Shown one piece after another: positions 9,985 to 63,666 of a stretch of DNA of 64,000 bases. Both the position numbers and the translations under genes were made by a program. Within the stretch, counting starts at the first letter, position 1, and the number at the start of each line of letters is the position of its first letter. The stretch comes from Ignavibacteriaceae bacterium (lineage in GTDB: Bacteria; Bacteroidota; Ignavibacteria; Ignavibacteriales; Ignavibacteriaceae): assembly GCA_008933765.1 (NCBI GenBank), contig WBUK01000001.1, positions 186,001 through 250,000 of the forward strand, read 5' to 3'. The notes under the pieces are model-generated. The model made no database searches. It was not told the origin of the DNA and saw nothing but the letters and a program-made list of their open reading frames with translations.

Positions 9985-10911
9985 ATGAAAAAGATTACCG
10001 TTGTTGGTGCCGGAAATGTCGGCGCCACCGCTGCTCAAAGAATTGCTGAAAAGCACCTCGCTGAAAATGTAGTTCTGCTTGATATTATCGAGGGTATCCC
10101 ACAGGGTAAAGCACTTGATATGTGGGAGAGCGCACCCGTTGAAGAGTTTGATACTTCCGTAATTGGTACTAATGACTACGCCGATACGGCAGGTTCTGAC
10201 ATTATCGTTATCACTGCCGGTCTTGCGAGAAAACCGGGAATGACCCGCGACGACCTTCTGATGAAAAATGCTGAAATCGTCGGGTCGGTTACTGAACAAA
10301 TTGCTCCCGGCTCACCAAACGCTGTGATCGTTATTGTCTCCAACCCGTTGGATGTTATGGCGTGGGTCTCGATGAAGAAGAGTAAATTCCCCAAGAACCG
10401 CGTTGTTGGTATGGCAGGAATACTCGATTCTGCCCGTTTCCGCCTTTTTATCGCAAAAGAGCTGAATGTTTCCGTTAAGGATGTTCACGCCCTTGTGCTC
10501 GGCGGGCATGGCGATTCAATGGTTCCGTTGGTAAGATACTCAACCGTTTCAGGTATCCCGATCAGCGAACTAATTCCCGAAAGCAGAATCGCCGAGTTGG
10601 TTGACAGAGCAAGAAATGGCGGTATCGAAATTGTTAACTTCCTTAAAACAGGAAGTGCTTACTATGCACCATCTTCTTCTGCTGTTGAAATGGTTGACGC
10701 TATAGTTAAAAACAGGCAACGCATTCTGCCGTGTGCAGCCTACTTAGAGGGCGAATACGGTCTGAACGGCATGTTTGTTGGCGTCCCCGTGCAGCTCGGA
10801 AGTAACGGTATCGAAAAGATAATCGAACTGAAACTGACCGATCAGGAGCTTGCAGAACTCCATCGTTCAGCTAATGATGTTAAAGCGAATATCGAAAAAT
10901 TGGGTATGTAG
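9985..10911 (+). CDS. mdh: Malate dehydrogenase (NAD-dependent)
   Basis: A 308-residue enzyme of the LDH-like MDH family that interconverts malate and oxaloacetate in the TCA cycle. It has the NAD-binding GAGNVGAT loop, an acidic LLDI residue for NAD specificity, and the active-site loop [11 protein letters not shown], where an arginine occupies the position that separates malate from lactate enzymes. [10 protein letters not shown] and the catalytic GGHGDSMVP are also present. It starts 14 bp after rpmA and is probably cotranscribed with the ribosomal genes. The 3' end merges into a 24-bp degenerate repeat array and then a terminator. Confidence 0.96.
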
Positions 10912-11118
10912 TTAACGCAGTTTGGGAAGTTATTGCAAAGCCTTTTTTCGGCTCACAATAACTTAAACCCATTGTTGCTCTTACTGCTGCCATGCATTTG
11001 ATTATTATAGCAACCATACAATGGGTTCTTGCTGCAACCGGGCATTAGATAATTACTGATACTATGCTTTGGTTCTTCACAGTAACCGTAAGTTAGAATT
11101 TTACTGCAACCCTGCGTT
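10903..11118. repeat. Degenerate 24-bp tandem array at the mdh 3' end
   Basis: From 10975 to 11118 six consecutive units of exactly 24 bp can be read, sharing a core like TTACTGCAACCNTGCATT; a conserved G recurs at 10986, 11010, 11034, 11058, 11082 and 11106. Three weaker units in about the same phase lie upstream, the first (10903-10926) spanning the mdh stop codon. A hairpin with 9-bp arms (10927-10935 and 10956-10964) lies within the weak units and lacks a U-run. The array fills most of the 317-bp gap before the terminator. No gene is visible here. Confidence 0.8.
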
Positions 11119-11169
11119 GAACAATCTTACATAACTCTCTTAAAGAGAACTAAAACTCTTAAGAATAAC

Positions 11170-11202
11170 AAAAAAGCCGTCTTGAAAAAAGACGGCTTTT
11201 TT
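11170..11202. terminator. Bidirectional terminator between mdh and the ADH-like gene
   Basis: AAAAAAGCCGTCTT (11170-11183) pairs perfectly with AAGACGGCTTTTTT (11189-11202) around GAAAA. The symmetric A and T runs suit the convergent genes on both sides. Confidence 0.93.
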
Positions 11203-11228
11203 ATTTAATCATTTTTTGTATTTATACT

Positions 11229-62348: not shown

Positions 62349-62511
62349 CGTCGTTTCGTCTTTTCAGTTACCTGATTTTGTTTTTGATGTTGTTTTTTGA
62401 CTTTTGGTTTAGTTTCTTGTGTTCAACTTTTTGAATTTCAACCATGGAACCTAACCTTTTGAACTTCTATCTTTTAAACTTTCAACCGGTTGAATTTTAA
62501 CTTTCTGAACT

Positions 62512-62653
62512 TCAACCTTCTGTTTTCAACCGTGCTCTCACCAACCCGGCAAAAGATTTAACTTTAATCTACACGAAAACTTTCAACCTTCTGTTTTCAA
62601 CCGCTGTGTCACCAACTCTGCCAGGCATTTCACAAAAGTTTTAGAATCATTCA
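62512..62653. repeat. 71-bp duplication of the hemH 3' end
   Basis: The last 71 bases of hemH (62583-62653) and the 71 bases after its stop (62512-62582) align without gaps; the first 21 bases are identical and similarity fades inward. Read on the minus strand, the downstream copy would still encode an LVRARLKTEG-stop tail like the true LVTQRLKTEG-stop. The rest of the 62349-62511 gap contains short TTTTGAACTTCAAC-like repeats. Confidence 0.85.
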
Positions 62654-63587
62654 GCCCGGTCATCACGATATAATTCTCAATTTTTGCTTCTTCAGCGTTG
62701 TGGCGGTACTCAATATCCAACTCGAAAGATGTCTCAACATGGTCTGAAACGAAACTGATCGGCACAACCAACACATCTTTAACTCCTGCGGCGCCAAGCT
62801 CCATTAGTTTCACATCGGTTGCGGGCGTCAGCCATTTAACGGGCCCCACCTTGCTCTGAAAAGAAAGGTGATATTTATGCGAATAACCCCGCTGTTTCAT
62901 CACTTCTTCCATGGTAACTTTAATCTCTTTGCTGTAGGGGTCTCCGTTTTTCACCAAACTCACCGGCGTGCCGTGTGCACTGAACAAAATGTTCACGCCG
63001 CCCCGTTTTTCTTCGCTCCATTTCAGAAGTGCTTCATCAATCCGTTCGTTGAGCGCTTTTATGTAGGTGGGGTGATCGAAGTAATTTCTGATTACCTCAA
63101 CTTTGGAAGTGTCGCCTTTGTAAACTCTGCTCCACTCGTTGAAAGAAGAACCGGAAGTGGTTATTGAGTAATGGGGGTACAACGGCAAGAGTATCACCTT
63201 ATCATAATTGCCTTTGGCAACTTTTTCCGCCGTCACATCCGTGAACGGTTTCCAGTAACGCATTGCAACGAAAACATCTGTTTTCGCAGAATCAAAACCG
63301 GTTTCTTTGGGTGTATTTCCGGAGTAAAAATTTGCTCTTAATTCTTCCTCCAACATTTGCCTTTGAAGTTCAGTCCACTCGTTTATTGGCGATTTACCGC
63401 CAATCAGTTCATACTCTTTTGCAACTTTCGGTGCCCGTTTCCGAGCGATGATTTTCGCAAAAAATTTCTGCGCAACCGGAATCTTAAAAATATCGGGATC
63501 ACTAAAAAGGTTTCTTAAAAACGGCTCCAACGCCTCTATACTGTCGGGACCACCCATATTCAACAATACAACTGCAATTTTTTTCAA
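62583..63587 (-). CDS. hemH: Ferrochelatase
   Basis: A 334-residue enzyme that inserts iron into protoporphyrin IX. It shows the N-terminal LLNMGGPDSIEALEPFL, the catalytic His in SAHGTP and Glu in SDHVETSFELD, and LPLYPHYS. The start codon is TTG at 63587: the conserved family start KKIAVVLLN follows at once and no ATG is nearby. A GA-rich ribosome site (AAGAGAAG) lies directly upstream inside a 24-bp repeat. It sits between hemN and hemG. Confidence 0.95.
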   Translation of the reverse strand: MKKIAVVLLNMGGPDSIEALEPFLRNLFSDPDIFKIPVAQKFFAKIIARKRAPKVAKEYELIGGKSPINEWTELQRQMLEEELRANFYSGNTPKETGFDSAKTDVFVAMRYWKPFTDVTAEKVAKGNYDKVILLPLYPHYSITTSGSSFNEWSRVYKGDTSKVEVIRNYFDHPTYIKALNERIDEALLKWSEEKRGGVNILFSAHGTPVSLVKNGDPYSKEIKVTMEEVMKQRGYSHKYHLSFQSKVGPVKWLTPATDVKLMELGAAGVKDVLVVPISFVSDHVETSFELDIEYRHNAEEAKIENYIVMTGLNDSKTFVKCLAELVTQRLKTEG

Positions 63588-63666
63588 ACTTCTCTTTCTT
63601 TTATAAATTCTAATGGTTGGGTTAACCGGCGATATAGCTCAGACTTCTCTTTCTTTCATAAATTCT
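63588..63666. repeat. 24-bp direct repeat between hemN and hemH
   Basis: Positions 63588-63611 and 63643-63666 match at 23 of 24 bases, 55 bp apart. The first copy abuts the hemH start codon and supplies its ribosome-binding region; the second lies 24 bp from the hemN stop. The 102-bp gap holds nothing else. Confidence 0.85.

Follow-up and report, generated by a model that had tools for sequence, protein, structure and literature searches.

Why are so many of the gaps that follow genes in this genome repetitive, and how did the repeats arise? The initial annotation of the window, that is, the whole stretch of 64 000 nucleotides analysed here, described degenerate tandem arrays anchored at gene 3' ends, each with its own unit and period, and attributed them either to a process that copies the DNA around stop codons or to slippage tolerated only there. 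Among the loci that it named, the alpha/beta hydrolase locus is presumably the gap 49327-49822, and the symporter locus we take to be the gap 55889-56090, both gene names being as given in that annotation. The repeats detected in the window are the following (strand is given where one applies).

9150..9250, direct repeat of 35 bp at a distance of 66, with 31 bp of unrelated filler (gap 8899-9389, p < 0.005)
10979..11119, degenerate array 3' of mdh, period 48 (2 x 24), 63% copy identity (gap 10912-11228, p <= 0.005)
14162..14243, array across the stop of the PMT-family gene, period 35, 70% identity (p 0.005)
41200..41289, array 3' of the NfeD gene, period 54 (3 x 18), 81% identity (gap p <= 0.005)
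44793..44864, perfect 16-bp array of 4.5 copies, from the last sucD codons, stop included (TRF; gap p <= 0.005)
49357-49409, shorter 22-bp array in the gap 49327-49822
49608..49739, degenerate array, period 64, 71% identity, downstream of ORF 49823-50689 (gap 49327-49822, p <= 0.005)
55931..56122, 71-bp array of 2.7 copies, 70% identity, from 32 nt before the stop of ORF 56091-57605 (gap 55889-56090, p <= 0.005)
59818..60015, degenerate 13-bp array, best register 52 (4 x 13), 61% identity, beside the stop of the GbsR-like gene (gap 59577-60019, p <= 0.005)
60657..60803, 37-bp direct repeat (92%) at a distance of 110, across the hemG stop (gap 60515-60797, p <= 0.005)
61409..61562, minus strand, in-frame 66-bp (22-aa) tandem array in hemG, 97-98% identical, within an insertion of ~56 aa
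62511..62633, 71-bp spaced repeat beginning 51 nt ahead of the hemH stop, filler of 19-36 bp according to the scoring used
63584..63672, 34-bp direct repeat (88%) at a distance of 55, at the hemH 5' end, reaching 4 bp into the gene

The arrays are real at the mdh, PMT, NfeD, sucD, alpha/beta hydrolase, symporter, GbsR-like and hemG loci, all of whose gaps pass at p <= 0.005. The hemH array is weak when only the gap is scored (period 15, p 0.025) but emerges when the coding tail is included, the 71-bp repeat then scoring 30. Altogether, 21 gaps between 60 and 700 bp were tested in the window; 10 of them exceed dinucleotide shuffles at p <= 0.005, and the remaining 11, the hemH gap included, fail p 0.005. 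The gap and self-match surveys were extended to 0.77 Mb (768 kb) of the 3.36-Mb genome, with simple ORF calls as genes and gaps of 60-700 bp covered. Approximately one-third of the gaps in this sample (100/291) contain a self-repeat stronger than any in 100 dinucleotide shuffles, and self-matches with a score of at least 18 number 626, compared with 3 in shuffled sequence, so that the excess over shuffled sequence on which the initial annotation had staked its claim extends to the genome sample. A few gaps are of low complexity, for example, 58668-58832 (p 0.05), but the probability that all arrays are artefacts of chance or composition is negligible, given that self-matches scoring at least 20 number 538 in the real sample and 0 in one shuffled version. 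After merging, 226 arrays, genuine CRISPR included, cover 18.2% of the intergenic and 2.3% of the coding bases.

The repeats form two classes, full tandem arrays and spaced repeats, in which a duplicated stretch surrounds unrelated filler. The full arrays, with 2-9 head-to-tail copies of the unit at many loci, as in minisatellites or VNTR loci, show little preference for any period. A spaced repeat consists of one direct repeat of ~30-37 bp, often across a stop, around ~36 bp of unrelated filler. The tandem array as the common form describes many loci, but a large part of the 65-75-bp signal is of another kind and reads repeat, unrelated filler, repeat; likewise, a separate period for each array roughly fits the full arrays but not the spaced class, which recurs near 66 and 72 bp. 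Copies range across loci from identical to barely readable, as originally described, and units look mutually unrelated by eye among the 22 strongest arrays printed, one of which is a CRISPR. The frequency of arrays alone might suggest a single dispersed element (REP, MITE or terminator repeat), but the same unit is not found at many loci, as it would be for a REP or MITE, and none of 48 fillers has a match longer than 22 bp elsewhere in the 1.5 Mb sampled for this search (the longest being 22 bp at 95%); nor does any Rfam family reach the gathering score in the window. This explanation, which the initial annotation also discarded, is very unlikely.

Around the stops of genes of at least 400 bp, arrays cover ~2% of positions deep in the gene, 10% of its final 25 bp, 21% of the 25 bp that follow the stop and 31% at +75 to +125. 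At starts, coverage is 8% over the preceding 25 bp and 2.7% over the 25 bp that follow. The proposed association with stop codons therefore holds in the genome sample. Subtraction of one CRISPR and of 71 arrays that were >95% coding from the 226 merged arrays leaves 154, of which 56 span a stop, 17 a start and 5 both. The anchoring at gene 3' ends is a preference, because arrays also occur in 17 of the 52 divergent gaps and, in frame, inside hemG and murF: stops are favoured, not required, and slippage tolerated only at stops is not supported in that form. Of 53 spaced repeats in one set, 24 have the nearest stop inside the first copy and none inside the second; in another set, with different repeat ends so that the two counts are not interchangeable, a stop lies in a repeat copy in 19/59 cases, compared with 11.7% of random non-genic windows (p 3e-5), that is, 2.8x the random expectation. 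Starts are not depleted (6/59 versus 11.2% random), and 37/59 spaced repeats contain neither stop nor start. The climb of coverage at stops but not at starts, together with this excess of stop-containing spaced repeats, could point to a process dedicated to copying the DNA on either side of stop codons, linked for instance to translation or transcription termination; the arrays inside genes and in divergent gaps, and the many spaced repeats away from both stops and starts, make such a process unlikely.

Inside genes, the distances between repeats are multiples of 3 in 23 of 25 cases, a weak sign because protein repeats yield such distances as well. One direct repeat in murF (L215:17570) was rejected as a duplication event, its layout being identical in relatives, and in-gene spaced repeats are therefore excluded from the evidence.

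Comparison with relatives indicates that the repeats come with added DNA. In a synteny comparison of 197 gaps with two genomes of the same genus (G002 and G003), 22 of the 25 gaps with a repeat exceed the orthologous gap by at least 50 bp, compared with 39/172 of the others, and the summed gap length is 17.5 kb here versus 8.8 kb in the relatives. Relative to G002 and G003, most of the comparable repeat-bearing gaps are expanded, in agreement with the original suggestion that the process builds intergenic DNA. Expansion by at least 50 bp is seen in 47/162 tandem, 9/17 convergent and 5/18 divergent gaps. In the window, the gaps are 103 bp versus 1 bp in G002/G003 for PMT, 263 versus 62-64 bp for NfeD, 141 versus 22 bp for sucD and 443 versus 75 bp for the GbsR-like gene; the gap 55889-56090 is 202 bp where G002/G003 have a 49-bp overlap, and the hemH-hemG gap is 234 bp versus 1 bp in G003, the genes overlapping in G001. 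At L007:13111-13247, a gap of 136 bp corresponds to 4 bp, the first repeat encoding the end of a conserved protein and the second being a copy; wherever loci were read in detail, the genuine gene tail, stop included, forms the first copy and the gap holds the later ones. The relatives, one genome per species, display shorter gaps, not variation in copy number. Array-bearing gaps, 100/291 here, number 6/48 and 7/58 in two same-genus genomes, 1/37, 0/25, 1/16, 1/17 and 0/3 in five other relatives, and 27/443 at 80 named loci. In G010, from another genus, 9/28 gaps carry arrays, so that array richness by itself is not unique to this genome. G002 and G003 differ by at least 50 bp in 2 of 70 gaps, a contrast that is not time-matched because these two appear to be closer to each other than to the present genome. 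Taken together, these data support a recurrent process that has added intergenic DNA to the genome, concentrated at gene 3' ends; the growth probably took place in this lineage.

In our assessment, the best explanation, with a probability of roughly 0.6, is that slipped or duplicative DNA synthesis, filtered by selection, made the local copies by which gaps exceed those of the same-genus relatives. Synthesis of this kind would copy DNA, often from the last codons of the upstream gene; when the duplication crosses the stop, the first copy would stay functional, a frame-keeping duplication in a protein loop would be tolerated, and most other duplications would be lost. Further slippage and point mutation might then turn fresh copies into worn minisatellites. 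The extra copies in gaps likely persist because they do little harm, and the in-frame arrays in hemG and murF fit such a tolerance filter. The filter alone does not yield the stop preference of the spaced class, and the expansion of 39/172 gaps without a detected repeat counts against growth by repeats. A further strain on slippage is the filler, which would be expected to be a copy of adjacent DNA but on average is similar to neither flank.

Bacterial minisatellites and VNTR loci arise by slipped-strand synthesis, and the present arrays resemble them: copies run head to tail, each locus has its own unit, ages vary widely and in-frame forms occur in genes. They differ in density (18% of the intergenic bases in the sample), in the frequent placement of the first copy in the tail of the upstream gene, in gap lengths about 2x those of same-genus relatives, and in their co-occurrence with spaced repeats, whose step is 66/72 bp and whose filler is unrelated. 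Loss of the flap-nuclease domain of Pol I, an idea that derives from work on yeast rad27 and E. coli polA, was rejected as the cause of duplication, since this genome has the domain, as do 29 of the 30 relatives searched.

The spacing of the second class invites a different explanation. With the CRISPR regions (on L031, L206, L208 and L209) masked, spaced-repeat distances form two peaks, 66-67 and 71-74 bp, separated by a trough at 69-70, and among distances of 50-100 bp, a step of 64-75 bp is found in 59/77 spaced repeats versus 22/53 full tandem arrays (Fisher p 9e-5). The genome has two native type I-B loci and encodes Cas1 and Cas2; the C18 array has a repeat of 30 and a period mode of 66-67, and C3 a repeat of 37 and a period mode of 72-73. 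This match of the distance peaks to native CRISPR periods suggests misdirected Cas1-Cas2 integration: a captured fragment of ~36 bp would be inserted at a non-CRISPR site, duplicating a target of 30 or 37 bp, and arrays would grow from such seeds. Off-target ('non-canonical') spacer integration by Cas1-Cas2 was reportedly described by Nivala, Shipman and Church in 2018, as cited in passages of PMC11788318, PMC9456107 and PMC11687729.

Several observations are consistent with adaptation gone astray. A target is duplicated around a short unrelated insert, with the short junction in a relative at L007:13111; the best-fit median repeat/filler lengths are 31.5/35.5 (n=18) and 35/38 (n=40); fillers of 33-39 bp are enriched (P 0.024); and none of 48 filler queries found a donor within the 1.5 Mb of host sequence searched (45% of the genome). 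Post hoc, 6 of the 10 lower-class loci with a repeat of 26-33 bp end exactly in AAC (GTT on the other strand), like the C3 repeat; the native 30-bp repeat, however, ends in AAAT. In 400 kb taken later, the upper peak recurred (14/33 at 70-75) but the lower one was barely seen (1 at 66). Fixed repeat and spacer lengths were not found: repeat lengths fall within 3 bp of a fixed 37/30 in 47% versus 79% simulated, and in 56% versus 86%, with repeat-end error accounting in simulation for only part of the scatter, and the variance of filler length is not reduced relative to permutation (P 0.67). The anticorrelation of repeat and filler lengths (rho -0.87) is weakened as a pure length ruler, given that at a fixed distance, errors in repeat ends produce it. 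Furthermore, the filler lacks the coding-like character (z 0.17 +- 0.11) that genuine spacers show (0.50-0.79), and the resemblance of the repeats to native repeats is weak (z 0.2-0.6). No site carries two clearly different fillers: of the 2 triples found, one is a protein repeat and the other has related fillers. Compared with the CRISPR arrays of the genome (C3, C18 and C36), the spaced repeats share the period of C3 and C18 but consist of local sequence, such as gene tails, with one filler per site instead of several different spacers between copies of one native repeat. Finally, no such class turns up in the stretches sampled from G002, G004, G007, G010 and G025, although these genomes have Cas1 and their CRISPR periods are 65-69 bp. 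We therefore consider stray integration possible but doubtful. The same tentative standing applies to the wider proposal that the two type I-B Cas1-Cas2 integrases reshape the chromosome, with ~36-bp inserts favouring gene ends, 30/37-bp duplications, ~39 surviving events/Mb and scars that seed arrays amounting to much of the new intergenic DNA. The 59 spaced repeats in 1.5 Mb extrapolate to roughly 130 fillers in the whole genome.

Other origins of the filler were considered as well. A diverged copy of the flank was rejected (average z 0.20 and 0.34, SE 0.14, with such similarity at a few loci only), as was hairpin-rich filler, stems and folding energy showing no excess. Viral contigs matched 0/6 filler cores and likewise 0/2 genuine spacers, which makes this comparison uninformative.

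If the 66/72-bp spaced repeats were scars left by Cas1-Cas2, CRISPR adaptation would act in nature as a mutator of the whole chromosome, an effect known mainly from Cas1-Cas2 overexpression. Titles and abstract openings listed by searches of the open-licence literature mention neither such arrays in Ignavibacteria nor genome-wide natural spacer scars. The genome offers a natural case for reading the birth of bacterial intergenic DNA, with a short gap in same-genus genomes and copies at every stage of decay here. The same kind of growth rewrites protein loops, in murF and in hemG, where the ~56-aa insertion that holds the 66-bp array is absent from the G001 and G003 proteins, and perhaps gene C-termini.

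The host genome (3.36 Mb in 37 contigs, 90% complete, with the window a part of contig C21) was sampled over 768 kb at first, window included, and later over 1.50 Mb, or 45% of the genome; genes were defined by simple ORF calls, and one genome of the species was compared. For the 291 gaps of 60–700 bp, the best ungapped self-match at periods of 10–130 was compared with those in 200 dinucleotide shuffles. At a threshold of p ≤ 0.005, 57 of the 187 tandem, 29 of the 52 convergent and 16 of the 52 divergent gaps in the 768-kb sample are significant, as are 10 of the 21 gaps in the window. 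A second rule (periods up to 220, none of 100 shuffles as high and an excess of 4 standard deviations) selects 57 tandem, 26 convergent and 17 divergent gaps, that is, 100 of the 291. With 538 self-matches scoring at least 20 in the real 768 kb and none in one shuffled version, the repeat signal noted in the initial annotation is stronger than that of shuffled sequence. The gene names given there agree with Pfam for mdh, the PMT-family gene, NfeD, sucD and hemH, the GbsR-like gene is a MarR-like regulator by Pfam and hemG is a hemG-like amine oxidase; this agreement covers these seven genes, and the names of the symporter and the alpha/beta hydrolase are those of the annotation. The best matches of sucD are mostly from Ignavibacteriales, Ignavibacteriaceae and Chlorobiota/Bacteroidetes MAGs and, judging by these relatives, the host is treated here as a relative of Ignavibacteria.

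The pattern is real, and it is more pronounced in the host than in most of its relatives. Under the second rule, the two same-genus genomes have arrays in 6 of 48 gaps and in 7 of 58, compared with 100 of 291 here; among other relatives, the counts are 1/37 (G004), 0/25 (G007), 1/16 (G008), 1/17 (G020) and 0/3 (G025), with zero testable gaps in G001, and 80 named loci from many phyla yield 27 of 443. The tandem-array habit is nevertheless not unique to the host, because G010, a genome from another genus of the same family (stretches L176–L179), has arrays in 9 of its 28 gaps.

The pattern is centred on gene ends. The 226 merged arrays (genuine CRISPR counted) occupy 18.2% of intergenic compared with 2.3% of coding bases. 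Coverage rises from 10% over the final 25 bases of the gene to 21% in the next 25 and 31% by +75, and is low around starts (8% in the preceding 25 bases and 2.7% after), which bears out the proposed association with stop codons. When arrays that lie almost entirely in coding sequence are excluded, the stop is spanned by 56 of 154 arrays, the start by 17 and both by 5. The suggestion that slippage is tolerated only around stop codons is not supported, given insertions inside two genes. The core haem-biosynthesis gene hemG contains an in-frame tandem array of 66-bp (22-aa) units, 97–98% identical (window 61409–61562), within an insertion of ∼56 aa that is absent from two relatives, G001 (by alignment) and G003 (by match lengths). 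In murF (L215:17340–18869), residues 271 and 323 bracket an insertion of ∼49 aa that the MurF of seven relatives lacks and in which two copies of a motif containing SEVIT lie 14 aa apart. Therefore, growth occurs beyond stop codons too. At the hemH end (window 62349–62633), the last residues are unlike those of G003 where the repeat begins; the C-terminus reads as if it had been rewritten by repeat growth.

Reciprocal-best orthologues in the same-genus genomes G002 and G003 define 197 syntenic gaps, with a summed positive length of 17.5 kb in the host versus 8.8 kb in the relatives. Expansion by at least 50 bp is found in 22 of the 25 gaps in which a direct or tandem repeat was detected versus 39 of the 172 others (by type, 47/162 tandem, 9/17 convergent and 5/18 divergent), and contraction by at least 50 bp in 11 (6 tandem, 3 convergent and 2 divergent). 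The following gaps are examples (host versus relative; negative length, overlapping genes).

hemH–hemG gap, 234 bp versus 1 bp in G003
sucD to the next gene, which looks like ndk by eye, 141 bp versus 22 bp in same-genus relatives
PMT gap, 103 bp versus 1 bp
symporter gap, 202 bp versus −49 bp
GbsR-like gap, 443 bp versus 75 bp
NfeD gap, 263 bp versus 62–64 bp

By-eye reading finds the short state also at hemH in G001 and at sucD in stretches L042 and L053. The 39 gaps that are expanded but gave no repeat may represent arrays that have decayed or a different process; one of these, at 50690–50772 (83 bp versus −1 bp), gives zero repeat signal. Between G002 and G003, 2 of 70 gaps differ by at least 50 bp, but the two appear close to one another, so that this comparison is not matched in time. 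As a mechanism, recurrent slipped or duplicative synthesis is the safest choice; it would add copies, and selection would retain them where the first copy keeps the gene intact or the reading frame is preserved.

Plain slippage does not explain a 66/72-bp step with unrelated filler. Many arrays with a period of 65–75 match over only about half of the period, with a repeat of ∼22–45 bp, unrelated filler and the repeat again. Among the 106 single non-tandem direct repeats at distances of 20–300 in 1.10 Mb (genuine CRISPR masked), 59 lie 63–76 bp apart; 400 kb sampled afterwards gave 14 of 33 at 70–75 bp and one at 66, so that the upper peak was replicated and the lower one barely. At 60–80 bp, such spaced repeats number zero in nine related genomes (∼724 kb) and four in 1.27 Mb of the 80 named loci; for G010, the count is zero in 80 kb. 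The spaced repeats look like a separate event type because the 64–75-bp step is far more frequent among them (59 of 77) than among full tandem arrays (22 of 53 with period 50–100; Fisher p = 9e-5). Of 59 spaced repeats, 19 carry a stop within a repeat copy, compared with 11.7% of random windows that do not fall inside a gene (p = 3e-5), and starts show neither enrichment nor depletion (6 of 59 versus 11.2%). At L007:13111–13247, the first repeat encodes a conserved protein end and the second is its copy, where the relative's gap is 4 bp. In stretches L035 and L031, one gene finishes in the first repeat and the next has its likely start in the second (start codons read by eye), an arrangement suggesting that the ancestral junction would be the repeat lacking any filler.

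Three CRISPR loci were identified in the sampled sequence.

C3 (L031:969–5166), repeat 37, period mode 72–73, with type I-B cas genes, cas1 and cas2 among them
C18 (L206:14916–18688), repeat 30, period mode 66–67, with type I-B cas genes, cas1 and cas2 among them
C36 (L208:16282–18761 and L209:11746–15907), repeat 37, spacers of 36–57 bp, adjoining a reverse transcriptase–Cas1 fusion of 797 aa (L208:13254–15647)

Of the ideas compatible with the 66/72-bp step, stray Cas1–Cas2 integration is the most specific, although we consider it a rather doubtful origin of the spaced repeats. The two peaks coincide with the C18 and C3 periods, and likelihood-fitted repeat/filler medians are 31.5/35.5 at 64–68 (n = 18) and 35/38 at 70–75 (n = 40), but the scatter of repeat lengths exceeds that expected for fixed 37- or 30-bp duplications. 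An exact AAC end, noted post hoc, occurs in 6 of 10 lower-class loci (repeat 26–33 bp) and in the C3 repeat, with C18 ending in AAAT, and one further lower-class locus starts with the complement, GTT; yet the likeness of the spaced to the native repeats is weak. Unlike genuine CRISPR spacers (codon score z of 0.50–0.79), the filler is not coding-like (0.17 ± 0.11, with 0.88 for host coding and 0.27 for host intergenic DNA), and no site with two clearly different fillers was found. Five relatives (G002, G004, G007, G010 and G025) encode Cas1 and have CRISPR periods of 65–69 bp, yet lack the spaced repeats in the sampled stretches. Viral contigs matched none of six filler cores, but none of two genuine spacers either, a powerless comparison. 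Published work states that Cas1–Cas2 overexpression can yield non-array integrations (PMC11788318), that IHF-like motifs increase these (PMC9456107) and that off-target sites in vitro prefer guanine and resemble the leader–repeat junction (PMC6895254).

For 48 fillers, leaving aside two loci recurring in overlapping stretches, no donor was found in 1.5 Mb of host sequence (longest match, 22 bp at 95%), and the filler is not hairpin-rich. Its GC content, 0.438, is higher than that of the repeats (0.365) or of intergenic DNA (0.353). In each of the C3 and C18 arrays, a few spacers are exactly identical to another spacer in the same array.
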